From assembly GCF_031195445.1 (NCBI RefSeq), contig NZ_CP133480.1, positions 744,001-808,000 of the forward strand: a stretch of 64,000 nt of DNA, read 5' to 3'. Source of the DNA: Acuticoccus sp. MNP-M23 (GTDB lineage: Bacteria > Pseudomonadota > Alphaproteobacteria > Rhizobiales > Amorphaceae). Shown here piece after piece: positions 44,399-57,317 of this stretch. A program made the position numbers and the translations under genes. The notes below the pieces were generated by a model that did no database searches, was not told where the DNA came from, and was given only the letters and a program-made list of their open reading frames with translations. Numbering within the stretch: position 1 is the first letter of the stretch; each line of letters opens with the position of its first letter.

Positions 44399-45757
44399 TT
44401 AGCCCGACAAAAGCCCCGGCAGCCACAGCACCAGCGCCGGACAGGCCAGAAGCAGCGCCACCCGCAGGAGCTCCGCGCAGAAAAACGGTATCACCCCGCG
44501 GAATGTCTCGCTCATGGGCGTACCCTTGGCGAGGCTTGAAATAACGAAAACGTTCATCCCCACCGGCGGTGTGATCAGCCCCAGCTCCACGACAATCAGC
44601 GCCAGGATGCCGAACCAGATCTTGAGATCTTCGGTGCTCATGCCGAAGCCAGCGCCATCGGTTCCCATGTACAGCCCGCCATTGAGGTCGACGAGAACGG
44701 GCCAGAAGAATGGGATGACGAGGAGGATCATCGAGAGGCTGTCCATCAGGCAGCCAAGAACGATGAGTGCGATCAGGAGCAGCAGCAGCACCGTCATCGG
44801 CGCGTACCCAGACGCAACGATCCACTGCGCCGTGGCTTGCGGCAGGCCAAGGCGCGAGACGTAGATCTTCATCAGCTCCGCACCCAGAAGGATGAGGTAG
44901 ATCATCCCGGCGCTGGATGCGGTCTCCTTCAAGGCATCCACAAGCCCGGCGAGGCTCAACTGCCGGGTGACCGCGCCGTAGAGCGCCACCAGCGCCACGC
45001 CGACGGCAGCCGCCGGCGTCGGGTTGTAGAACCCGGCATAGATCCCGCCCAGCACCAGCGTGAAAATGACGAGAACAGGCAGGACGCCCAGCGTGGCGGC
45101 CCGAAATTCGGCAGAGCCCGGAAAGGGACGGCGGGGCCCTGCCTCCGGCCGCACGGCGGTGTAGAGCGCAACCACCACCAAAAAGAGCAGCACCGCGAGG
45201 ATGCCCGGCAAGAGCGCCGCGGCAAACATGGTGACGACGTTCGCTTCCACGAGAATGGCGTAGATGATGAGAACGACGGATGGCGGAATGAGGATACCGA
45301 GAACCCCGCCCGCCGCCAGCGATCCTGTTGCCAGCGCGCCGCTATAATCCTGCCGCCGGAGTTCCGGCAGGGCGACGCGCCCCATGGTGGACGCGGTGGC
45401 GAGCGAGGACCCGCAGACCGCGCCAAACCCCGCACACCCCGCAATGGCCGCCATCGCCGCCCCGCCGCGCATCCACCCGAGCCACGCGCTGGCGGCGCGA
45501 AACAGGGCCTGGCTCAGTCCGGTGCGGGCCGCCAGCGCCCCCATCAGAATGAACATCGGGACGACCGAAAGATCGTAGATGGCGAACTGGCCGTAGGCGA
45601 GCGTCTTCAGCTGGTTGAGCACCAGCGCCGGGCCGTTGACCGACGCGATGCCGACCCCGCCGACAAGGATCATCGCATAGGCGATGGGCATCCTGAGCAC
45701 GATGAGAACAACGAGCACACCGAAAGAGACGAGCCCGAGGACGATCGGATCAGACAT
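44399..45757 (-). CDS. TRAP transporter large permease subunit (DctM)
   Basis: 452 aa, about 12 membrane segments; DctM patterns GFGAVCGSSLATASTMGRVALPE, GGVLGILIPPSV and ITPPVGMNVFVISSLAKG. It overlaps the dctQ gene by 8 bp. With dctP and dctQ upstream it makes a second TRAP transporter in this window, here next to protocatechuate genes, so an aromatic or dicarboxylic acid is a plausible substrate. Confidence 0.87.
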   Translation of the reverse strand: MSDPIVLGLVSFGVLVVLIVLRMPIAYAMILVGGVGIASVNGPALVLNQLKTLAYGQFAIYDLSVVPMFILMGALAARTGLSQALFRAASAWLGWMRGGAAMAAIAGCAGFGAVCGSSLATASTMGRVALPELRRQDYSGALATGSLAAGGVLGILIPPSVVLIIYAILVEANVVTMFAAALLPGILAVLLFLVVVALYTAVRPEAGPRRPFPGSAEFRAATLGVLPVLVIFTLVLGGIYAGFYNPTPAAAVGVALVALYGAVTRQLSLAGLVDALKETASSAGMIYLILLGAELMKIYVSRLGLPQATAQWIVASGYAPMTVLLLLLIALIVLGCLMDSLSMILLVIPFFWPVLVDLNGGLYMGTDGAGFGMSTEDLKIWFGILALIVVELGLITPPVGMNVFVISSLAKGTPMSETFRGVIPFFCAELLRVALLLACPALVLWLPGLLSG

Positions 45758-46259
45758 GCGCCCGCCCGGCCTCCCTTGCGTGCGCGCCAAGCGTGAAAAG
45801 CGCTGCCAGCGCAAGCAGCGCCAGCGATACGAGAATGGGGATGAAGGCAACCCAGACCGGCACCTGGAGGATGGCCGTGGTGTAATTGTAGGCCCGCTGG
45901 TCGATCGCACCCGCCGACATCCGCCACAAAAGGACGAGGCTGAAGACGAACGCAGCAAGCGAACCCATCAGCGCCAGCCCTGCCCGCGCGCGAGGCTTGA
46001 GGCGGGTGGTGAAGATGTCGGCACTGACATTGGCGCCGGTCAGCTCGCAATAGGGCAGGAACGCGAACACCGCGACCGCAACGCCCATCTCGGTCAGCTC
46101 GAAATCACCCTGCAGCGGCAGCCCGGCAATGCCGCCGACAACCGCCGCCACGTTGATCGCAACCACCGCCAGAAGAAGGACGCCGCCCAAGATCGCCCAT
46201 GCGGTGATGACACCGCCAACAAGGCGGCGGACGGGCGAACCCGTCCCCGGCGCCCCCAT
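45750..46259 (-). CDS. TRAP transporter small membrane subunit (DctQ)
   Basis: 169 aa with four hydrophobic segments and the DctQ pattern (FELTEMGVAVAVFAFLPYCELTGANVSADIF). Directly adjoins the dctP stop and overlaps dctM by 8 bp. Confidence 0.84.
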   Translation of the reverse strand: MGAPGTGSPVRRLVGGVITAWAILGGVLLLAVVAINVAAVVGGIAGLPLQGDFELTEMGVAVAVFAFLPYCELTGANVSADIFTTRLKPRARAGLALMGSLAAFVFSLVLLWRMSAGAIDQRAYNYTTAILQVPVWVAFIPILVSLALLALAALFTLGAHAREAGRAHV

Positions 46260-47315
46260 TCAGCGCGGCGCGGCGTTGGCTTGGATGGCGGCGCGAGCGC
46301 TGTCCACCAGCGCGGCGCCGTCGATCCCCTTTTGCGCCATGTCCTCGACCCAGCGTCCGACAACCGGCGTCAGCGCATCGCGAAACGCGTCGGTCTCAGC
46401 CTCGGACCAGACGATATGCTCGTTGCCGCCATCGGTGGCGAACCTGATGCCGAATGCATCGGACGCCAGCCAGATCGACCCCACTTCGGCAAGCCAATCC
46501 GGACCGGAGGCGTCGCGGAATGCCTGCTGGATCTCAGCCGGCAGACCGTCCCAGCGCGCCTTGTTCATGGAGACCTGAAACGTGGTATTTCCGAGACGCC
46601 AGCCATCTGCGCCCTCCATCTGGTAGTCGGTCTGCTCCTGAATGCGCAGGGGCGGAATGATCTCGAACGGAATGAGCGCGCCGTCGACCACACCTTTCTG
46701 GAGTGCGGGCGGCAGCTCGGGGACCGGCATGGACACCGGCGTTGCGTCCAGCGCCTCGATCACCCACGCACCGGTGCGGGTGGGAATGCGCAAGCGCGCG
46801 CCCGAAAGGTCGGCGGGCGTGCGCACCGGCCGGTCCCGCATCTGGATTGCCTGCCCGGCGTGGACGTGCAGGAACATCACCTCCAGCCCCTGATAATCGT
46901 CCGCCAGATCGCTCGCGAACATCTGCGCGATCGCGAGATTTGTGGCGGCGGGGTCGTTCCCGTAAACGGTCGGCAGCTCGAACACTTCGGTGCGCGGGAA
47001 AAGGCCGGGGGTGTAGCCGTTCACGGTCCAGATGAGATCGACCACGCCGTCGCGTGCTTGCTGGACCAGTTCGGGCGGACGGCCGCCCAGCGTCATCGAG
47101 GGGAAGATTTCGATCTTGACCTGACCGCCGGAATTTTCCTCCACCTGCCTTGCCCAGGGTTCCAGCATCCGGGCTTGCGCCGGCGCCTTGGCTCCCAGGA
47201 AATGGTGCAGCTTGAAGGTGTAGTCCTGAGCACTGGCAAGGGAGGCGAACCCCAATGTGGCCGCAAGTACGGTGGCAACCGCGAGCGGTGACGGGCGCAT
47301 GGTGCGTTTGGGCAT
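46260..47315 (-). CDS. TRAP transporter substrate-binding protein (DctP)
   Basis: 351 aa with signal peptide (MPKRTMRPSPLAVATVLAATL, cleavage near SASAQ). DctP fold: KIEIFPSMTLGGRPPELVQQARDG, LRIPTRTGAWVIEAL with the carboxylate-binding Arg, and LQKGVVDGALIPFEI. ATG 47315 has AGGAAA 8 nt upstream. Follows pcaB by 124 bp on the same strand. Confidence 0.86.
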   Translation of the reverse strand: MPKRTMRPSPLAVATVLAATLGFASLASAQDYTFKLHHFLGAKAPAQARMLEPWARQVEENSGGQVKIEIFPSMTLGGRPPELVQQARDGVVDLIWTVNGYTPGLFPRTEVFELPTVYGNDPAATNLAIAQMFASDLADDYQGLEVMFLHVHAGQAIQMRDRPVRTPADLSGARLRIPTRTGAWVIEALDATPVSMPVPELPPALQKGVVDGALIPFEIIPPLRIQEQTDYQMEGADGWRLGNTTFQVSMNKARWDGLPAEIQQAFRDASGPDWLAEVGSIWLASDAFGIRFATDGGNEHIVWSEAETDAFRDALTPVVGRWVEDMAQKGIDGAALVDSARAAIQANAAPR

Positions 47316-47439
47316 CTGGCGTTTCCTGGAAGACCGGCTGAGCCGCTTTTTTTTGCATTCGGGCAGACCAAAGCGGGTGGATGCACGGAACGCAAGACTA
47401 GCCAGCGCGCAATCAATTTCGCGCAGCGTCCTGCGATCC

Positions 47440-48489
47440 CTATTCGATCTGGCCGATTGACGTCACGGCGCCGGCAAGCTCGGTGGCGGCGGTCAGCGCG
47501 CGGCCCGCGGCAACCGTCATCGGCGGAAGGGTCAGCCACTCCAGCGTCCAGGCCGCACCGGACCGCTCCTGCTCATGGACAAGCGCTGAATGCATGGCGC
47601 CCACCTGCGCCGCATTGTAACGCGCAAGCGTCACGAGCAGCTCGGCATGGACGGGGTTCTGCTTGTGCGGCATGGCCGACGATCCGCCGCCACCTGCCAG
47701 CCTGATCTCGTCCACGCCCTGCTGCGCCATCAGCGTGACGTCGGCACCGAACTTGCCGAGCGTGCCCGTCAGCACCGACAGCGCAGACGCGAACTCAGCA
47801 ATGGCCGTCCGGTCGGTGTGCCAGGCGGCTGGCGCACGGGAAAGGCCGAGGCGGTCCGCCACCCCGTCGGCAATCTCCGCCGCGGCCGGGCCGAACCGGT
47901 GCCGGTCGCCCACCGCGCCGCCCAGCTGCACCCGTGCCACCCGCGGGCGCATCGCCTCAAGCTGCGCCCTGACGTGCGCCACCGGGTCGATCCAGGTGCG
48001 GATCCGGCTGCCTGCCAGTATGGGAAGCGCCGCCTGCATCCGCGTTCGCCCCATCAGGCGCCGGGTCCCGTGCTCGGTTTGCAGCGCGCGAAAGGCATCG
48101 GACAGCTTATCGAGCCGGCCGAGATACAGGCCAATGAGGCGGTCGAGCGTCATCGCCAGGGCGCTGTCCAGCACATCCTGCGAGGTGGCGCCGGTGTGGA
48201 TGATCTCCGGCACCGGTGCCCCCTCGCGGATCATCCGCGCGAAGGCCGGGACGACGAGGCCGTCTGCCGCAACGCCGCCGGCCAGCAGTTCAAAATCCGG
48301 CGTCCAGGCGACCAGATGGGCATCGGCGGCCAACGCATCGGCCGGGCTGATCTGCCCGACCGCCGCCCGTGCCGCAACAAGCGCCCTCTCGAACGCGACC
48401 ATATGGGCAAGCTGCGCCGACGGCGACCACAGGGCTGCCACCGCATCGTCACCGAAGAAGGCCGCCAGCAGCGGGTCGTCGAAGGTCAC
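47440..48489 (-). CDS. pcaB: 3-carboxy-cis,cis-muconate cycloisomerase
   Basis: 349 aa, fumarase/aspartase superfamily with signature GGSSAMPHKQNPVHAE and the TGATSQDVLDSA block. PcaB converts 3-carboxymuconate to 4-carboxymuconolactone in the protocatechuate branch of the beta-ketoadipate pathway. Length is typical for short alphaproteobacterial PcaB. The GTG at 48489 (FDDPLLAAFFGD start) with GAAGG upstream avoids running into pcaD. Adenylosuccinate lyase is related but the flanking pcaD and pcaC settle the call. Confidence 0.87.
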   Translation of the reverse strand: MTFDDPLLAAFFGDDAVAALWSPSAQLAHMVAFERALVAARAAVGQISPADALAADAHLVAWTPDFELLAGGVAADGLVVPAFARMIREGAPVPEIIHTGATSQDVLDSALAMTLDRLIGLYLGRLDKLSDAFRALQTEHGTRRLMGRTRMQAALPILAGSRIRTWIDPVAHVRAQLEAMRPRVARVQLGGAVGDRHRFGPAAAEIADGVADRLGLSRAPAAWHTDRTAIAEFASALSVLTGTLGKFGADVTLMAQQGVDEIRLAGGGGSSAMPHKQNPVHAELLVTLARYNAAQVGAMHSALVHEQERSGAAWTLEWLTLPPMTVAAGRALTAATELAGAVTSIGQIE

Positions 48490-48529
48490 GGCGCACGCCT
48501 TCGGGCTGGTTGACGCGGCAGTCTTCGCA

Positions 48530-49315
48530 TCAGTCGAGCGCTCCGAGCGACGCAATGGCATCGAACACGATTTTCGGCGTCTCGATGCACGGCAGGTGGC
48601 CCACCGCCGGAACCACGGTGAGCGCGGCGTCCGGCAGCGCCTCGGACAGCGCCGTCACCATCGCGACGGGGGTGGACGCATCCGTCTCACCGGCAATGCA
48701 GACGGTGCGCTGGTGCAGCTTGCCCGCATCCGCGGTGAGGTCCGCATCGCGGATGGCCTCGCTCACGCGCGCATAACCCTCGGCGGGGGTGCGCGTCAGC
48801 ATGGCGCGGTAGCCGGCAAGGTCGGTCGCCTGCCCGGCGACATAGCCGGGGCTGAACCAGCGGGTGATGATGGCGTCGGCCATGGCCTCAAGGCCCCTGG
48901 TGCGCGCAATCTCGATGCGCTCGTTCCACATTGCATCGTTACCGATCTTCAAGCCCGTGTTGGACAGCACGGCGGTCGCCACCAGATCCGGTCGCGACGC
49001 CGCCAGTGCCTGCACGATCAGCCCGCCCACCGACACGCCGCAGGCGCATGCCGCAGTGAGGCCGAAATGCGCCATGGCCGCTGCCATATCCTCCGCCAGC
49101 GCCGCAATGGTGACCGGCCCCATGGCGCTCAACCCGTGGCCGCGCTTGTCGAGCCGCAGGATCGGCGTTTGCGCCGGCAACAGCGCCACAACCCCATCCC
49201 AGATCCGCAAATCGGTGCCGAGCGAATTGGAAAAGACCACCGGCGTGCGACCGGCCGCGCCGGGCCTGAATTCACAATGCAGCGCGCGACCGTCGATCTC
49301 GATGAAGTGGGGCAT
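48530..49315 (-). CDS. pcaD: 3-oxoadipate enol-lactonase
   Basis: 261 aa alpha/beta hydrolase: oxyanion region FSNSLGTDLRIWD, nucleophile elbow CGVSVGG, acid in GETDASTP and His in VGHLPCIETP. It hydrolyses the enol-lactone to 3-oxoadipate. Between pcaC and pcaB, 42 and 40 bp apart, in one operon. Confidence 0.9.
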   Translation of the reverse strand: MPHFIEIDGRALHCEFRPGAAGRTPVVFSNSLGTDLRIWDGVVALLPAQTPILRLDKRGHGLSAMGPVTIAALAEDMAAAMAHFGLTAACACGVSVGGLIVQALAASRPDLVATAVLSNTGLKIGNDAMWNERIEIARTRGLEAMADAIITRWFSPGYVAGQATDLAGYRAMLTRTPAEGYARVSEAIRDADLTADAGKLHQRTVCIAGETDASTPVAMVTALSEALPDAALTVVPAVGHLPCIETPKIVFDAIASLGALD

Positions 49316-49357
49316 CGCCTTCTCCCGTTTATGATTGTTGCCTGCCGGAAGCGCCTG

Positions 49358-49741
49358 TCACGACAGCTCGACACCCATCTCCCGGTACGTTTCCTTGATG
49401 ATCTTTATCGCGTGATTGGCCTTCGGCACACCGCAATAGACCGCAACGTGAAGCATCGACTCGATCAGGTCCTGCGGCGTTGCCCCGGTGCTTTCGGTCG
49501 CGCGCACATGCATGGCGATCTCGTCGAAATTGCCGGCGGCGGCGAGGAGCGCCAGCGTCAGCATGGAGCGTTCGCGGTGGGACAGGTGCGGCCGTGACCA
49601 GACCGTGCCCCAGGCGCCCTCGGTGATCAGCGTCTGAAATGATTCGTCGAACGCGGTCTTGGCTTTTTCCGCGCGGTCCACGTGGGCATCGCCGAGAACG
49701 GCTCTTCGCGTTCGCATTCCCTCGTCGAAACGGTCGGTCAT
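49358..49741 (-). CDS. pcaC: 4-carboxymuconolactone decarboxylase
   Basis: 127 aa, the full length of a stand-alone PcaC of the CMD/AhpD-like fold: MRTRRAVLGDAHVDRA, FQTLITEGAWGTVWSRP, and the helix ATESTGATPQDLIESMLH. It decarboxylates 4-carboxymuconolactone between PcaB and PcaD. Protocatechuate dioxygenase genes pcaG/pcaH are not in the window, so the operon is partial here. Confidence 0.9.
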   Translation of the reverse strand: MTDRFDEGMRTRRAVLGDAHVDRAEKAKTAFDESFQTLITEGAWGTVWSRPHLSHRERSMLTLALLAAAGNFDEIAMHVRATESTGATPQDLIESMLHVAVYCGVPKANHAIKIIKETYREMGVELS

Positions 49742-49867
49742 GGGGATCTTTCTGTCCGGGTTTTGAGGCTGTGGGGCTTGTGCCCGCGCCTTTCCTGCCA
49801 CCGCACCACGGTGGGCGAAAGGCGCCCCTCCCCGGCAAAGCGATGCCAGACCGCGCGGTGCGCGCGC

Positions 49868-51079
49868 CTAACGTGTGGCCAGTGCCATGGTGTCGCCGTT
49901 GCCCGGTGTCGTGTCCCGGCCTTCGGCCCAGCGGCGCTGGCGGGCAACGGCGACACGGTGGACGCCGACGATCGCCGCGACACTCACCGCCATCACCAGC
50001 ATTGCCCCCCACCGCACCCAGGCCGGCGATCCCAGCGACAGGAGAGCAGCGCCCACCAGCGGCCCGGCTGCCACACCGGCAAGGCCCATAGTGGGGATCA
50101 TCCGCTTGACGAAGGGGCTGCCGACCCTTGCAACCTCGGCCATGGCCGCGGAACCGCCGATGTTGAGCGCAATTTCAAACGCCACCAGAATGACCAGCGA
50201 GATGGCAACGCCTGCCGCGCCGTCCAGCAATCCCATGGAAATGATGAGCGCCGTTGCCGTGACGAGAAGGCGCGCGGTGCTGTCCCGCCCCCAGAGCGCC
50301 ACGGTAAGCGAGAGGATCACCCCGGCAGCAATCTTGGACAGGCCGACCGAACCGGCAGTCCGGTCGATGAGGCTCTGGCCGGCATCCAGAAACGTGCCTA
50401 TATTGGAGACGAACATCAGCGCCGCCATGAAAAAACCGAGGAGACCCGCAAGCGCAACATATTGCTCGCCCCGGTTACTGGCGATTTCCGGCCGGGAGGG
50501 AATCTCTGCCGAAAGGATACGCCCGTCCGGCCTCAGGATCAGAGCGACGGCCAGAATGACGACGGCATACGCCACGCAAAGGCGGGTGTAGGGCACGCTG
50601 GCGTCGATCCACTGCACGGCCATGGCGATGATTCCTGCCAGAACCATGGCCGCCGACAGGCGCGCCATGAAGCCGAGAAACTTGCTCGCCCCGCTGGCCG
50701 CTGCCACCATACCGTTGAACATGTAGATGCCGCTGATCCAGCCCACCGCAAACCAACCGGCCAGCGAGAGCGGGCCGGTCAGGAAAGGCAGGGCCAGCAG
50801 AACGCCGACATGAAGGCTGATGGTGACGAACGGATGGCGCACGATGGAGCGCAATTCGTCAGCCCAGAGGCGCCAGAACCGCTCGACGACCCCGAAAGAG
50901 CGCAGGCTGGATGATGCGAACAGGCCGAGAAGCGCGGCACTGGCGAGAACACCGGGGGCGACGCCGCCAACCCCGCTGGCGGTGCTGGCCAGAACTGCCG
51001 TCAGATGCAGCGGCAGCGAGCCCACGGCCGAAAAGAGGACGACCCGCGATTCAGCCGAGAACCAGACTGCGCGGGCCAC
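49868..51079 (-). CDS. MFS-like 12-TM membrane protein, last gene of the repeat-peptide cassette
   Basis: 403 aa with about 12 hydrophobic segments arranged as two sets of six, a long basic loop near residue 70-85 and another near 190-205, and a charged C-terminal tail. The layout fits the major facilitator superfamily, but I see no strong family motif, so the substrate and direction are unknown. It starts 3 bp after the DUF6065-like gene and is third in the cassette with the tandem-repeat protein. Export of a product made from that protein is a reasonable guess, not shown. Confidence 0.65.
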   Translation of the reverse strand: MARAVWFSAESRVVLFSAVGSLPLHLTAVLASTASGVGGVAPGVLASAALLGLFASSSLRSFGVVERFWRLWADELRSIVRHPFVTISLHVGVLLALPFLTGPLSLAGWFAVGWISGIYMFNGMVAAASGASKFLGFMARLSAAMVLAGIIAMAVQWIDASVPYTRLCVAYAVVILAVALILRPDGRILSAEIPSRPEIASNRGEQYVALAGLLGFFMAALMFVSNIGTFLDAGQSLIDRTAGSVGLSKIAAGVILSLTVALWGRDSTARLLVTATALIISMGLLDGAAGVAISLVILVAFEIALNIGGSAAMAEVARVGSPFVKRMIPTMGLAGVAAGPLVGAALLSLGSPAWVRWGAMLVMAVSVAAIVGVHRVAVARQRRWAEGRDTTPGNGDTMALATR

Positions 51080-51082
51080 GGA

Positions 51083-51844
51083 TCAGGCGATCTTTCGTCT
51101 GTCGGCCGCGTAGCGTCCCGGACGGCGCTGATCCCGTTCACTGGACTTGCGCATGATCCCGCCGAGGCCTTCCCAGTCGAACGGGGCGCCGGGGTCGTTC
51201 ATGTCGCTGACCACATCAAGCTCGCGATCACCGTCAGTGTAGGACGCGCGCAGGATCGGCTGCATCTGAAACAGCGGCCGGTCGCGCGGCAGGAAGATTT
51301 CCGTGTCCGTCTTGACGATCTTGAAGTTGATGAACAGGGGGCAGGGCTTGAAATCGGCGGTCTCGATAATTCCCTCGTAGTGGGAAATCGAGCTTCTGAT
51401 GTCGTAATTCACCGGCGAGCGGACACCGAGGCTCCACCCCGGCGCGGTCTCGACAAAATAGCCGGACCAGATCTGGATCCCGCCGGGCACGAAAAGTTCG
51501 GTGATGAAAGGGGGGTTCAGAAAGGCGAGGTCGTCGGGCGCCTGCTCGTTCCACTCGGCCTGAAAATCGGGACCGAACTGGGTCGACTTGACCGGGAACC
51601 ACTGGTCGTCTTCGTAAAAATAGCTCTCGCGCCCGTCAAAATAGAGCGACATGTCCTTGGGCGGGTAGATGTACCAGCCGAAACCGGAGGCGACGCGCAT
51701 CGCCTCGCAATACTGGAACGCGCCGGCCGGCATGATACCGGCTGCACTTTTCTGGGCTTTCAGAATATCCGGCGCCGGCTTGTAGGCCTTCCAGATCCGC
51801 ACGGGGGGCTTTTCAGCCGGCGCAATCGCCGCTTCTGCCGTCAT
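51083..51844 (-). CDS. DUF6065-like protein next to the tandem-repeat gene
   Basis: 253 aa, soluble, no signal peptide. Blocks such as MRVASGFGWYIYPPKD, FFVPGG-like FVPGGIQIWSGYFVETAPGWSL, SHYEGIIETADF and FLPRDRPLFQMQPI recall the DUF6065 family from memory; I could not check this by search. Mostly beta-strand with aromatic residues; scattered His/Asp but no metal motif I can name. The start has AAGG about 10 nt upstream. It lies 89 bp after the repeat gene and 3 bp before the membrane protein, so a role in processing or binding the repeat product is inferred from context only. Confidence 0.6.
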   Translation of the reverse strand: MTAEAAIAPAEKPPVRIWKAYKPAPDILKAQKSAAGIMPAGAFQYCEAMRVASGFGWYIYPPKDMSLYFDGRESYFYEDDQWFPVKSTQFGPDFQAEWNEQAPDDLAFLNPPFITELFVPGGIQIWSGYFVETAPGWSLGVRSPVNYDIRSSISHYEGIIETADFKPCPLFINFKIVKTDTEIFLPRDRPLFQMQPILRASYTDGDRELDVVSDMNDPGAPFDWEGLGGIMRKSSERDQRRPGRYAADRRKIA

Positions 51845-51933
51845 AGTCTTCGACCTTTTTTGTACCGCTCCCGGCGGAGACGTATCGACGCCGAGAGATG
51901 CACCGAAAGGACGTTCTGTCGAGGGTCAGCTCT

Positions 51934-52527
51934 TCAGGCAGCAAGGAGCGGCTTCACGCGGGGCGGGTTCATGCCACCGGCGATTTCGATCTTGGACACC
52001 GGCTTCACGCGCGGCGGGTTCATGCCGCCGGCGATCTCGATCTTGGACACCGGCTTCACGCGGGGCGGGTTCATGCCGCCGGCGATCTCGATCTTGGACA
52101 CCGGCTTCACGCGCGGCGGGTTCATGCCGCCCGCGATTTCGATCTTCGACACCGGCTTCACGCGGGGCGGGTTCATGCCGCCGGCGATCTCGATCTTGGA
52201 CACCGGCTTCACGCGGGGCGGGTTCATGCCACCGGCGATCTCGATCTTGGACACCGGCTTCACGCGCGGCGGGTTCATGCCACCGGCGATTTCGATCTTG
52301 GACACCGGCTTCACGCGGGGCGGGTTCATGCCGCCTGCGATTTCGATCTTGGACACCGGCTTCACGCGGGGCGGGTTCATGCCGCCTGCGATCTCGATCT
52401 TGGACACCGGCTTCACGCGGGGCGGGTTCATGCCGCCTGCGATCTCGATCTTGGACACCGGCTTCACGCGGGGGACCGTCAGCGAGCCATCAACTACAGC
52501 CTGAAGTTTAAGGTTTGCGTTCGACAT
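51934..52527 (-). CDS. Leader plus ten identical 17-residue repeats (possible multi-core peptide precursor)
   Basis: 197 aa. An 18-residue leader (MSNANLKLQAVVDGSLTV), ten perfect copies of PRVKPVSKIEIAGGMNP, and a tail PRVKPLLAA. There is no signal peptide, membrane segment or cysteine. The protein is basic and Pro/Gly rich. An AGAGGA site 6 nt before the ATG supports the start. The ten units differ in DNA only at synonymous third positions of Pro, Ser, Glu, Ala and Gly codons, which marks this as the coding frame and the peptide as selected. Each unit holds a Gly-Gly, a possible cleavage site. A ribosomally made peptide precursor with many cores is the favoured idea; a structural or binding repeat protein is the alternative. 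Confidence 0.75.
   Translation of the reverse strand: MSNANLKLQAVVDGSLTVPRVKPVSKIEIAGGMNPPRVKPVSKIEIAGGMNPPRVKPVSKIEIAGGMNPPRVKPVSKIEIAGGMNPPRVKPVSKIEIAGGMNPPRVKPVSKIEIAGGMNPPRVKPVSKIEIAGGMNPPRVKPVSKIEIAGGMNPPRVKPVSKIEIAGGMNPPRVKPVSKIEIAGGMNPPRVKPLLAA
51964..52473 (-). repeat. Ten tandem 51-bp units inside the repeat gene
   Basis: Ten directly repeated 51-bp units with no spacers. Five positions vary among units (Pro CCG/CCC, Ser TCC/TCG, Glu GAG/GAA, Ala GCC/GCG/GCA, Gly GGC/GGT), all silent in the - strand frame. In the main + strand frame the same changes include a Leu to Phe change in the fourth unit from the left. Confidence 0.95.
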
Positions 52528-52725: not shown

Positions 52726-53193
52726 ATGAACCATTGTAGGTCTATCAGGTCAGATATTAGCGTGGCGACCAATCCTCTCCGCGTTGCGCTAATTCCATTC
52801 ACGGGAATCGACCCTGAAAATGATGGATCTTCATTCGGGTCAAAAATTGCACGACGGGCGACTAATTTTTTGAATTCATCGCCGATTCTGGACATTGTTG
52901 TTCACGGATCGTGCAACAATGTCTGTATGCGCTACCTCAGCATGGAAGAAATACAGCGAAAAGCCAGCCTCGACTATATCATCGACGGGACCGTCCGCGT
53001 TTCATCGACTCACTATATTATCGATGTCGACTTCACGGATTGCACAACAGGTGGACTGATCTTTTCAGAACGGTTCAAGCACGCGAAGGACGATCCGGAT
53101 ATCGACGGTCTTGCCGAAGAAATCATCAATCAACTGATGATCACCTTCAATTTCCTGTTCATTGCGCAGATGCCGGATCGACTTCACGCCTGA
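52726..53193 (+). CDS. Stand-alone TolB/FlgO-like domain protein, AT-rich
   Basis: 155 aa. From residue 14 it follows the pattern of the TolB-like N-terminal domain found beside adenylate cyclases and winged-helix regulators: LRVALIPFTGIDPENDG, a middle LDYIIDGTVRVSSTHYIIDVDF and the TGGLIFSERF block. The usual partner domains are absent, so it is a single-domain version. Its DNA is much poorer in GC (about 45%) than the surroundings, as is the 198-bp gap on its left, which suggests recent arrival. Weak AGGAT site before ATG 52726. Divergent from the repeat-peptide cassette, so the two may share a control region. Confidence 0.6.
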   Translation: MNHCRSIRSDISVATNPLRVALIPFTGIDPENDGSSFGSKIARRATNFLNSSPILDIVVHGSCNNVCMRYLSMEEIQRKASLDYIIDGTVRVSSTHYIIDVDFTDCTTGGLIFSERFKHAKDDPDIDGLAEEIINQLMITFNFLFIAQMPDRLHA

Positions 53194-53293: not shown

Positions 53294-53430
53294 CGTCGTT
53301 GGATTTTCGCCCGTGAATGCCGCGGTCAGCGGCCCCCTTCAGGCCACCCGCAATGAAAGCTTCATTCGACCCGATAAAATTCCAATGTATGGTGGGGCGC
53401 CAAACGAAGGCTCATTCTGGAGGACCGCCA

Positions 53431-53877
53431 ATGACGACGTTTCGCGTGTTTACCGCTGCCCTTTTGACCACCTGCGCAGTTTCGGTCGCCGCCGCTCAAT
53501 CCGACTCGCCGCAGGCCCAGCGCCACATGCTGATGGAAGAGATCGGTGACAGCACCAAGGTGCTCGGCGCCATGGTGAAGGGTGAAACGCCCTACGACAC
53601 CGCAAAGGCGCAAGCCGCGCTGGATGTTCTCATCGCCAACGGCAAGGAATTCGTCACCCTGTTCCCCGAAGGTTCGGAAACCGGCGAAGACACCCGCGCC
53701 CTGCCCGCGATCTGGGAAAACTGGGCCGACTTTGAGGCCCACGCCGCCGCCATGGTGGACAACGCGGAAGCGGCAAAGGTGGCGGCCGATGAGGGGCAGG
53801 AGCCCTTCAGCGTGGCATTTCGCGAAGTGGGCGGCACCTGCCGCGCCTGCCACACCGATTACCGCGCAGAAAAATGA
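53431..53877 (+). CDS. Cytochrome c' family protein
   Basis: 148 aa with signal peptide (MTTFRVFTAALLTTCAVSVAAAQ). Four-helix cytochrome c' pattern: RHMLMEEIGDSTKVLGAMVKGE, ALPAIWENWADFEAHAAAM, and the C-terminal heme site CRACHTDYR. A periplasmic heme protein of this family binds NO or CO and may protect against nitric oxide, which would suit a nitrate and nitrite user. GGAGG lies just upstream of ATG 53431. Confidence 0.88.
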   Translation: MTTFRVFTAALLTTCAVSVAAAQSDSPQAQRHMLMEEIGDSTKVLGAMVKGETPYDTAKAQAALDVLIANGKEFVTLFPEGSETGEDTRALPAIWENWADFEAHAAAMVDNAEAAKVAADEGQEPFSVAFREVGGTCRACHTDYRAEK

Positions 53878-53886
53878 CGCATCACA

Positions 53887-53915
53887 GCGGGGCTGGCGGC
53901 TGAAGCCAGCCCCGC
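53887..53915 (+). terminator. Strong hairpin between the two cytochrome genes
   Basis: Perfect 11-bp stem GCGGGGCTGGC (53887-53897) with GCCAGCCCCGC (53905-53915), loop GGCTGAA. No T-run follows, so it may be an attenuator or a message-stabilising element rather than a full terminator. Confidence 0.5.
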
Positions 53916-53976
53916 ACCGAATGGCGGCCGGGCGACGGACCCCGGCCGCAGTGAACCGCCTTGCACGGATTGGCCC

Positions 53977-54897
53977 ATGACTTCACGCATCGTCATTGTT
54001 CTTGCTGCCATCGTCGTCGGTCTTGGCGGTCTTTTCCGGTGGCTGAGCGCACCGGACCGGGTGGACGCCGCAACCCTTCCCGCGCACACGCCGGATGCCG
54101 GAAACGGGGAAATCCTGTTCAACGAAGCCGGCTGCGGGTCCTGTCATGGGGCCAAAGCCGCAGGCGATGCCGCGAACCCGGAGGGCGGCCCGATTCTGGC
54201 GGGCGGCCTGGCGCTCGAAACGCCGCTGGGGTCGATCACGGTCCCCAACATCTCGCCGGATCCGGCCCACGGGATCGGCGCCTGGTCCGCTGCCGACTTC
54301 GTGACCGCCATGAAGGAAGGCGTTTCCCCAGATGGCACCTACTTCACGCCCGCGTTTCCGTGGACGTCCTATCGCGGCATGACGGTGCCCGATATTCTGG
54401 ACCTGAAGGCCTATCTCGACACGCTGCCTGCCTCGGACAATGCGGCGGCAGCCACCGGGTTGCCCTTCCCGTTCTCGTGGCGCCGCCCCATCGGCATCTG
54501 GAAAAGATTTCTGCTGCCGGATTTGCCCGCAGCGCCGGACGGCGCCAGTGCGGAGGTCGAGCGCGGGCACTACCTCACCGTGGCGCTTGGCCATTGCGGC
54601 GAGTGCCACACCCCGCGCACGCTGGCGTTTGCGCCTGACCCTTCGCGCTGGCTCGCAGGTGCCCCGGCGCTGGAGGGGGACGGCGGCGTTCCCAACATCA
54701 CCCCCTCCGCGGATGGCATTGGCGACTGGAGCGCAGCGGACATTGCCTACCTGCTCGAAAGCGGGTTCACGCCGGACTACGATTCCATCGGCGGTTCGAT
54801 GGGACCCATCGTCGACCATTGGTCCAAGGTGCCTGATGCCGATCGCGCCGCGGTCGCCGCCTATCTGAAGGCAATCCCGGCACTGCCCGACCCCTGA
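53977..54897 (+). CDS. Diheme cytochrome c
   Basis: 306 aa. N-terminal membrane anchor or signal (MTSRIVIVLAAIVVGLGGLF) followed by two class I cytochrome c domains with CGSCH (about residue 53) and CGECH (about 200), each followed by a Met-region (GVSPDGTYFTPAF, GGSMGPI). Similar proteins serve as electron acceptors of membrane dehydrogenases for alcohols, aldehydes or sugar acids. It may form a redox pair with the cytochrome c' gene upstream. Confidence 0.85.
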   Translation: MTSRIVIVLAAIVVGLGGLFRWLSAPDRVDAATLPAHTPDAGNGEILFNEAGCGSCHGAKAAGDAANPEGGPILAGGLALETPLGSITVPNISPDPAHGIGAWSAADFVTAMKEGVSPDGTYFTPAFPWTSYRGMTVPDILDLKAYLDTLPASDNAAAATGLPFPFSWRRPIGIWKRFLLPDLPAAPDGASAEVERGHYLTVALGHCGECHTPRTLAFAPDPSRWLAGAPALEGDGGVPNITPSADGIGDWSAADIAYLLESGFTPDYDSIGGSMGPIVDHWSKVPDADRAAVAAYLKAIPALPDP

Positions 54898-55268
54898 GGC
54901 TTTGCAGCGTCCCTCGGGGCATCCCGCGCTGCTGCGATGCTCAGTCGGCCGCGTAGCGGGCGATAAGCTCGGGGTCCGGCGTCACACCGTGGCCGGGGCG
55001 GCGCGGCACTTTGGTGCGGCCCGTCCTTGCCACCTCCGCGGCAATGGGCAGCCCCTCCAGCGCAAGATCGTCGCGGAAGGCGTTGTGCGTCGTGTCGAAT
55101 TCCAGCATCGGCTCGTCCGGGTGAAGGCCGCCGGGCAGCGGCGGCATGGCGGCCAGCAGCTGCAGGTTGGTGGCCACCGCCACCGCCGAACCCCAGACGT
55201 GGTTCACCATGACGTTGCCCCTTGGAATGTCCTCGGTCTGAACTGGACTCCGTCAGAAGGAGACGGAG

Positions 55269-55535
55269 ATGAAGAAGAGCCGCTTCAGCGAAGAGCAGAT
55301 CATCGCGGTCCTGAAGGAGCATGCCGCGGGGATCGGTGTGTCGGAGCTGTGCCGCAAGCACGGGATCAGCGACGCGACGTTCTACACGTGGCGCAAGCGC
55401 TACGGCGGAATGGAAGTGTCTGAAGCCAGGCGGCTGAAGGCGCTGGAAGATGAGAACGGCCGCCTGAAGAAGCTTCTCGCCGAACAGATGCTCGATGTGG
55501 CGACGCTGCGGGACGCTCTGGGAAAAAACTTCTGA
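55269..55535 (+). CDS. IS3-family transposase OrfA
   Basis: 88 aa. Helix-turn-helix ([19 protein letters not shown]... [15 protein letters not shown]) and leucine-zipper-like helix ([20 protein letters not shown]) for binding the element ends and multimerising. The end of the gene holds an A6 run (55523-55528) where a -1 slip joins it to OrfB. Confidence 0.92.
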
Positions 55536-55558
55536 CGCCCAGCGCACGGAGAGGCTTC

Positions 55559-56380
55559 GTGAGTTGGGCGATTGAAAAGAAGGGGTATTCCCAGCGGCGC
55601 GCCTGTGCCCTGATCGGGATGCATCCAAGGACTTACCGCTACCGGTCGCAGCGGCCGGACGATGCGACGGTGCGCCAACGCCTGAAAACGCTGGCGAACG
55701 AACGGCGCCGGTTCGGCTATCGGCGGCTGCATATCCTTTTGCGGCGCGAGGGTATCGAGGTGAACCACAAGAAGCTGTTCCGCCTATACCGCGAGGAGAG
55801 GCTGAGTGTACGACGGCGCGGCGGCCGAAAACGTGCCATCGGAACGCGGGCGCCAATGACCTTGCCGCGAGGACCAAACCAGCGCTGGAGCCTCGACTTT
55901 GTCTCCGACCAGCTCAGCGACGGGCGCCGCTTCCGTGTGCTGGTGGTGCTCGACGACTTCACCCGCCAGTGCCTGACGCTCGTTGTCGACACATCACTGT
56001 CGGGGGCTCGCGTGGCACGGGAACTCGACCGCCTGATCGTCAGTCGCGGCAAGCCGCTCACGATCGTCAGCGACAACGGCACCGAGCTGACCTCCCATGC
56101 CATCCTCGAATGGCAGGAGGACCGCCGCGTCAATTGGCACTACATCGCGCCCGGCAAGCCGATGCAGAACGGCTTCGTAGAGAGCCTGAACGGTCGCTTC
56201 CGCGATGAGTGCCTCAACGAGCATCTCTTCCGCAGCCTTCCGGGCGCTCGCCGCATCATTGAGGAATGGCGCACCGACTACAACCACGACAGGCCGCACA
56301 CCAGCCTGGGCGGCCTCACCCCGAACGAGTTTGCAACCCGGTCCCGATGGGACCACAACACGAACAGAGTCCAGCTATGA
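55559..56380 (+). CDS. IS3-family transposase OrfB (DDE integrase)
   Basis: 273 aa from a GTG at 55559, but the frame is open upstream and reads [19 protein letters not shown] across the A6 slip site, so the working product is probably the OrfAB fusion. rve-type catalytic core with Asp ([11 protein letters not shown]), Asp ([11 protein letters not shown]) and Glu ([18 protein letters not shown]) all present and a C-terminal [13 protein letters not shown] block. It appears intact. Confidence 0.92.
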
Positions 56381-57317
56381 GCGGGGACACTTCTGGGGCA
56401 ACGTCAACCACCGGCGTGAAGTGCGCGTGGCAAAGCGCCAGCACCTTCAGATATTCGCTGATACCGCCCAGCGCGCAGACTTCGGGCTGCGCGATGTCGA
56501 GCGCCCGCGCCTCCAGGAGCCGCCGCCAGCCCCAGCGCGTAAACTCCGCCTCCCCGCCCGATATGTTGACGGTGAGCCCTGCGCGCAGTTCGCGGTAGCC
56601 CTCAAGGTCCTCAGGCACCACGGGCTCCTCGAACCAGTGGACGCCGAGGCCGCCAAGCGCCCGGCCCACGGCGAACGCATCGGCGGTGTGGTAGGCATGG
56701 TTGGCGTCCACCATCAGCCGCGTGTCATCCCGCAACGCGCCGCGCACCGCCTCCACCAGCGCGATGTCCGCGCGCACGCCAAGGCCCACTTTCATCTTGA
56801 GCGCCGCAAATCCACGGGCCTCCAGCATCGCAGCCTTCTCGGCAAAGCGGGCGGCAAGGTCCGGCACCGGGCGCAGCATCATCCCGTAGCCATAGACGGG
56901 CACGGTGTCGCGGCAGCGGCCGCCGATGAGATCGGCAATCGGCCGGCCAAGGATCCGGCCGGCCAGGTCCCACAGCGCGATGTCGATGCCGGACAACGCC
57001 TGCAACGGCATCCCCTTCTGGCCGTGGTCGCGCATCCTGTTGTAGGCGTCGTGCCAGAAGGCTTCGCGCGCAAACGGGTCACGGCCGATCAGAAGCGGCG
57101 CCAGCACGGTCTCGATGATGGTGCGGTTGACCCGTGCAACCCCGCCGGGACCGAAGCACTCGCCCCATCCGACGGCGCCATCGTCGGTCCGCACTTCCAC
57201 CAGATGGGCGGTGCGCTTTGAATAATATTGCTGCGAGTAGCCGAGCTGCTCCGGCAATTCATATTCAAGGACGTGGCTGGTGACGCTTTCGATCTTCATC
57301 CCGCTCTCTCTTCGAAG

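Follow-up and report, generated by a model that had tools for sequence, protein, structure and literature searches.

Results

A repeat gene paired with a DUF6065 gene

The gene of ten identical 17-residue repeats in the window (the whole stretch of 64,000 nucleotides analysed here) and the DUF6065 gene that follows it almost certainly belong to a real, recurring two-gene unit, in which a repeat peptide is paired with a protein from one clade of the DUF6065 family (PF19541). An orphan repeat gene thus becomes part of a defined two-gene family, a peptide with 1 to about 15 motifs together with a testable partner, and part of the uncharacterised DUF6065 family gains a first lead to its role. The DUF6065 protein probably processes or binds the repeat peptides, and the pair may represent a new kind of bacterial peptide-making system. 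The features of the locus are given in Table 1.

Table 1. Features of the repeat locus in the window.
Feature	Position	Strand	Basis
Hydrophobic membrane protein P0003 (by eye), with MFS-like kin in other loci	49868..51079	-	Protein clustering
DUF6065 protein (PF19541) of 253 aa with a dUTPase-like fold by prediction; candidate partner or enzyme	51083..51844	-	Pfam, predicted structure
Gap between repeat gene and DUF6065 gene, 89 bp, with a modest RNA stem-loop	51845..51933	-	Folding compared with shuffles
Repeat protein of 197 aa, a putative precursor of multi-copy peptides	51934..52527	-	ORF and repeat count by script
Nine-residue tail PRVKPLLAA, a partial eleventh unit and the end	51937..51963	-	Translation
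Ten 51-bp units, each encoding PRVKPVSKIEIAGGMNP; five variable codons, all synonymous	51964..52473	-	Tandem Repeats Finder and codon comparison
N-terminal segment, 18 residues, unconserved in relatives	52474..52527	-	Sequence comparison
Divergent gene with TolB-like domain; candidate regulator or remnant of one	52726..53193	+	Related to part of larger TPR proteins

Structure and coding frame of the repeat gene

Translation, a script count and Tandem Repeats Finder all bore out the architecture described in the earlier note, namely a start of 18 residues, ten perfect 17-residue repeats and a nine-residue tail. When the whole window was searched with Tandem Repeats Finder, this array (period 51, 10.3 copies, score 945) came top of five rows. 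The absence of Cys, also claimed in that note, was confirmed by a residue count by script, which also found no Trp, Tyr, Phe or His in the protein. By eye, a Shine-Dalgarno-like stretch (AAGAGGA) was recognised ahead of the ATG.

At the five codons that vary across the ten units, every change is a synonymous one in the third position. Since 38 silent and 115 replacing single changes are possible in each unit, chance would not be expected to leave only silent variation. Nine near-identical units, PRVRPVSK(I/V)EIAGGMNP, occupy the equivalent place in a separate MAG from the genus (G005), so the repeat is no assembly accident; in G005, third positions make up eight of the nine variable sites, and one codon alters a residue (I/V). 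Variation in both arrays falls wholly or mostly at third positions, which identifies the minus frame as coding; the 499-aa and 214-aa open frames opposite it are the antisense of the window array. From this pattern of substitutions, selection appears to hold the repeat unit constant, and homogenisation by recombination may have made an added contribution to the identity of the units.

Matches of the window repeat protein to known families were all below cut-off, and the only two PDB sequence matches, both VirB11-type with E about 0.6, were taken as chance. Among the relatives, L039, L054 and L061 exceeded the curated cut-offs of a few unrelated families as whole-protein sums, with no single stretch passing; these matches, including one of L061 to YlcI/YnfO, were read as sums over repeats. 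The one or two passing stretches for LiaG and Bflower_3 (L039) and auto_Ata (L054), each under the family's own cut-off, were read in the same way.

Repeat ORFs precede DUF6065 in one clade

A profile of the unit was built from 27 repeat units and run on 7002 ORFs from 70 loci, and the ORFs lying directly before DUF6065 took ranks 1-34. By this profile, a repeat ORF stands before DUF6065 in 34/40 clade loci, which come from alpha-, beta- and gammaproteobacteria, and in 0/30 ordinary DUF6065 loci (best E 3.5). The multi-core precursor reading of the earlier note is supported in part by this layout, a repeated peptide beside a constant partner and, in the window, a transporter-like gene. Each locus was counted once among the 40 (L035 is G005 contig C92, L038 is G006 contig C382, L039 is G040 contig C187, and L130 is L055), and the only gene cluster found in all of them was DUF6065.

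Training loci make up 27 of the 34 ranked loci. Among the seven non-training matches, L035, L033, L058 and L060 have near relatives among the training loci, while L049, L048 and L050 are distinct, single-copy members with E values of 0.018-0.16, at a thin border (L050, the last winner, at E 0.16 and the next ORF at E 0.17). The end of the repeat ORF lies at -9 to -198 relative to the DUF6065 start, with the exception of L041 (+214), where the DUF6065 frame is over-extended. In the six clade loci missed by the profile, single-copy peptides were found by eye in L026 (N-masked), L043 and L062, and short basic ORFs only, without a clear motif, in L029, L030 and L031.

Ten loci were fetched later, comprising three new clade members, six weak DUF6065 matches outside the clade and one training locus again (L130). 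The repeat gene was present in all three new members (L128, L129 and L131; E 7e-14, 1.5e-7 and 9.5e-16) and in 0/6 of the weak matches, two of which were unmatched by the clade profile. A motif-free test gave an upstream ORF with a self-repeat z >10 in 28/33 clade loci and in 2/30 ordinary loci, both of the latter being low-complexity ORFs that end 380 and 640 bp upstream. Distances between units and between DUF6065 proteins were correlated across 27 loci (Mantel r 0.63, 0/2000 permutations), a correlation also expected from simple co-inheritance of a pair travelling together.

Core, period and copy number of the units

The units of the relatives are diverse in sequence and have periods of 14-38 residues, with a consensus core of about (V/I)x(M/L/I)GxGxxxPx(V/F). 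This core reads IEIAGGMNPPRV in the window unit, VRMGSGELPPRV in L039, VQMGNGLISPAV in L052, VKLGMMAPAF in L055, VEMGGLSPLF in L057, VRLGNMSPAF in L131 and VGMGYGGNMPVRI in the single-copy L048 (Bradyrhizobium). Repeat number proved variable across relatives, from one (L048, L049 and L050) through 12 (L039) to about 15 (L052; 15 profile domains, 14 by regex), with one to three units only in many of them, and the variation within the window array is silent.

In the gene of L052 (4019-4933, Polaromonas), about 15 units alternate between kinds (MGNGLISPAVKAHLQKK, MGGGLITPTLAVHLAKK and MGTGWISPVVKSHLQKK), which looks as if several different products were encoded together.

The DUF6065 partner has a predicted dUTPase fold

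The window DUF6065 protein scores 38.6 bits against PF19541, over the gathering cut-off of 26.6, and the clade profile matches ordinary DUF6065 members at E 2.5e-16. Cys46, Trp57, Asn146 and Asn173 never vary across 31 clade and 21 ordinary members. What distinguishes the clade from ordinary DUF6065 is the repeat-unit ORF upstream, found in none of the 30 ordinary loci examined. The clade alignment (A3) held 30 of the 31 loci and the window (L062, for which no full open frame was found, was left out), and the profile comparison left out 9/30 ordinary DUF6065 loci and 1/20 dUTPase loci.

An AlphaFold2 model of DUF6065 from 31 sequences was confident (pLDDT 85.7, pTM 0.78). Among the best 50 Foldseek rows listed, 48 were titled dUTPase and two came from a differently titled entry, 6h4c; the best E was 1.4e-4, and TM in these rows was 0.51-0.75 by target and about 0.4 by query. 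VIA-align of the model to dUTPases gave Z 10.2-11.0, with 2.6 A over 119 residues for 2py4. The model thus predicts a dUTPase fold for DUF6065. Its predicted overall fold is like that of trimeric dUTPases (PF00692), whereas the protein is about 100 residues longer, lacks a significant sequence or profile match and has Glu in register with Asp. No PF00692 match was found in the window DUF6065 protein at E 1, and profile-profile comparison of the clade with 19 dUTPases (P 0.55) and with dCTP deaminase (P 0.18) was not significant. Within the non-significant dUTPase alignment, motifs II-IV (as conventionally named) were in register with DUF6065; in this rough register GIIET falls close to the Asp motif of dUTPases and PLFQ close to RIAQ, and the position facing Asp is Glu in 28/31 clade members. 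The genome of the window also has an ordinary dUTPase gene at another site. We found no literature naming DUF6065 or PF19541.

Organisation of the locus

The repeat protein, DUF6065 and the MFS-like transporter likely form one operon with the repeat gene first. The gene for P0003 begins 3 bp past the DUF6065 gene on the same strand. P0003 had no Pfam match in a scan of eight window proteins; it clusters with MFS-like proteins of other loci, and its homologue in L039 exceeds the MFS_1 cut-off (34.6 vs 33.4), which just 3/9 MFS-like proteins scanned passed. A transporter-like gene lies within 300 bp downstream of DUF6065 on the same strand in 14/40 loci, MFS-like in 12 (window included) and EamA in two. 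The stem-loop between the repeat and DUF6065 genes (51840-51940) had z -2.09, with equal or better folding in 6/200 shuffles, and scanning for promoters and terminators gave numbers close to chance (1 vs 1.1 expected and 4 vs 3.8).

The divergently encoded TolB-like protein had no Pfam match. Larger relatives of it occur in the fetched flanks of 20/39 other DUF6065 loci; among seven scanned, BTAD was found in L053 and L050, a cyclase domain in L042 and L044, and TPR or weaker matches only in L039, L040 and L051. By this sequence relationship, the TolB/TPR protein may be linked to the DUF6065 loci, if weakly.

The minus-strand stretch directly downstream of the repeat operon (44399-49801) contains what by eye are TRAP-type transporter genes and then genes resembling those of protocatechuate breakdown (lyase, alpha/beta hydrolase and carboxymuconolactone decarboxylase). 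Beyond the TolB-like gene on the plus strand lie a Cytochrome c-prime gene (PF01322) and then a gene in which two CxxCH haem motifs can be recognised by eye (53317-54897). An IS3-type transposase pair (55269-56380, plus strand, by eye) seems to sit within an enolase-superfamily gene, parts of which are at 56316-57299 and 54941-55210.

No conserved leader

The earlier note had read the 18-residue start as a leader, a reading that comparison did not support. The start differs even within the genus (MSNANLKLQAVVDGSLTV in the window and MKMLATVSVRNAMNSQSVSSTGGA in G005, from its most upstream start), and 10 or fewer residues precede the first motif in L044, L045, L052, L053, L054 and L058 (L036, cut by the contig end, was set aside). 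With no conserved leader and so few residues before the motif in these six loci, the recognition signal most likely lies inside the unit. Scans of eight window proteins and, among the neighbours in relatives, of transporters and regulators revealed no known RiPP enzyme and no clear protease. The alpha/beta hydrolase at 48530-49315 had Abhydrolase_1 as its best match and Hydrolase_4, S33, as a secondary one.

Multi-core RiPP precursors are exemplified by the cyanobactin and fungal dikaritin types, and by analogy the repeat gene may work like such a precursor. The shared features are a gene-encoded core in many short copies beside a constant, adjacent partner gene, a variable copy number and, in 14/40 loci here, an adjoining transporter-like gene. 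Unlike in those precursors, the constant partner is DUF6065, a conserved leader was sought and is absent, and no protease or known RiPP enzyme occurs among the neighbours scanned. Given the absent leader and the lack of a known RiPP enzyme among the neighbours scanned, we did not file the system as a RiPP.

Microcin C-type systems consist of a short ribosomal peptide, one tailoring protein and an MFS exporter. The present locus is similar in its peptide, single partner and MFS-type gene, and a nucleotide-related fold would fit; it differs in that the microcin C-type peptide is single-copy and its modifying enzyme belongs to another family. Peptide-nucleotide systems of this type are the subject of PMC9239234. 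Nothing on the repeat/DUF6065 family was found in the available portions of the literature that covers multi-core precursors or links dUTPase and RiPP.

Proposed explanation and its rivals

We propose that the window gene would provide a multi-copy peptide substrate, each repeat being one recognition or core motif (IEIAGGMNPPRV here), so that the recognition signal would lie inside each repeat instead of in a leader. DUF6065, with its predicted dUTPase fold, would bind and probably modify the motif of each unit, host proteases would then free small peptides, and the adjacent MFS-type, elsewhere EamA-type, transporter would export them. The explanation builds on the repeat with its purely synonymous variation, the order of the genes, the specific pairing with one DUF6065 clade, the copy number of 1 to about 15 and the fold as predicted. 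By analogy with multi-core peptide pathways, we see about an even chance that the repeats are DUF6065 substrates yielding a small, exported product. This substrate-export reading is weakened because the transporter is found in 14/40 loci only, no leader is conserved and neither a RiPP enzyme nor a protease appeared among the neighbours scanned. The chief rival to it is that the uncleaved repeat protein acts as a multivalent ligand or scaffold, each unit binding one DUF6065 molecule or trimer and thereby gathering or regulating DUF6065, a serious possibility although we incline against it. The pairing, the varying valency and the absent leader fit this as well, the dUTPase fold is usually trimeric, and no cleavage site was identified, nor a protease among the neighbours scanned. 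However, multivalency is ruled out in the single-copy members (L048, L049 and L050, and by eye L043, L062 and L026), the downstream transporter-like gene in 14/40 loci speaks against it, and the zero residue differences among the window units seem stricter than avidity would need.

It is improbable that DUF6065 retains a nucleotide-hydrolysing or -binding activity with the peptide as its inhibitor or regulator. dUTPases are the best structural matches of the model, and GIIET and PLFQ fall near the Asp and RIAQ motifs in the rough, non-significant register, but sequence similarity to dUTPase is not detectable (P 0.55), Glu replaces Asp in nearly all clade members (28/31), the genome has its ordinary dUTPase gene, and ten copies would seem superfluous for an inhibitor. 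Strongly disfavoured, and the least probable of all, is a structural repeat protein (a solenoid or surface protein) that lies beside DUF6065 by chance. AlphaFold2 does place about one strand per repeat in the window protein, yet with low confidence (pLDDT 52.5, pTM 0.37), and the pairing recurs in alpha-, beta- and gammaproteobacteria. As to the folded solenoid that the earlier note had named as counting against its reading, the repeat protein has no confident fold, and the single-copy members, like the many with one to three units, argue against several stacked units. Returning to the substrate reading, we consider it rather unlikely that its specific form is a new type of leader-independent ribosomal peptide pathway, in which a repurposed dUTPase-fold protein would modify the motif GxGxxxP, perhaps transferring a nucleotidyl group as in the dUTPase reaction but with the peptide replacing water, the yield being multiplied by up to about 15 motif copies per gene. 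We know of no dUTPase-type fold in peptide pathways. If DUF6065 does modify the motif, it would be a leader-free peptide-tailoring enzyme, useful for peptide engineering.

Distribution of the clade

When the DUF6065 protein was searched across the order, clear members were found in 9/397 genomes, at 10 places, and weak matches only in seven further genomes. A contig scan with a four-sequence alignment yielded 31 clade loci, including Palleronia, Amylibacter, Hydrogenophaga, Variovorax, Polaromonas, Bradyrhizobium, Reyranella, Vineibacter, Roseibium and Anianabacter. The clade was present in at least 5/385 genomes of a class sample, counting the window's own and one training locus again, and in 1/398 genomes of a phylum sample (E 1e-20, with part of the first-look candidates scored); the latter was the window's own genome, so the clade is rare. 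No clade member was found in phage records. Two Rhizobium plasmids carry the clade in the order hypothetical protein, DUF6065, MFS transporter, the hypothetical protein being a three-unit repeat and the transporter frame being split in one of the two.

PF19541 as a whole was matched in 46/385 genomes of the class sample, 42 over cut-off and at least five being the repeat-paired clade. Plasmid records with a match number 63, of which 61 are Sinorhizobium. None of the 30 ordinary loci examined (L065-L094) had a repeat gene. The same-genus genome G005 has a second, distant DUF6065 unit (L028, contig C198), in which the repeat peptide has two copies and the transporter is EamA-type. In the Reyranella-like loci L053-L055 and L057-L060, a large TPR protein (with BTAD in L053) precedes the pair and no transporter was seen directly downstream; acyl-CoA carboxylase-like genes (by eye) follow the pairs of L057-L060. 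L056 differs from the other Reyranella-like loci in having EamA downstream.
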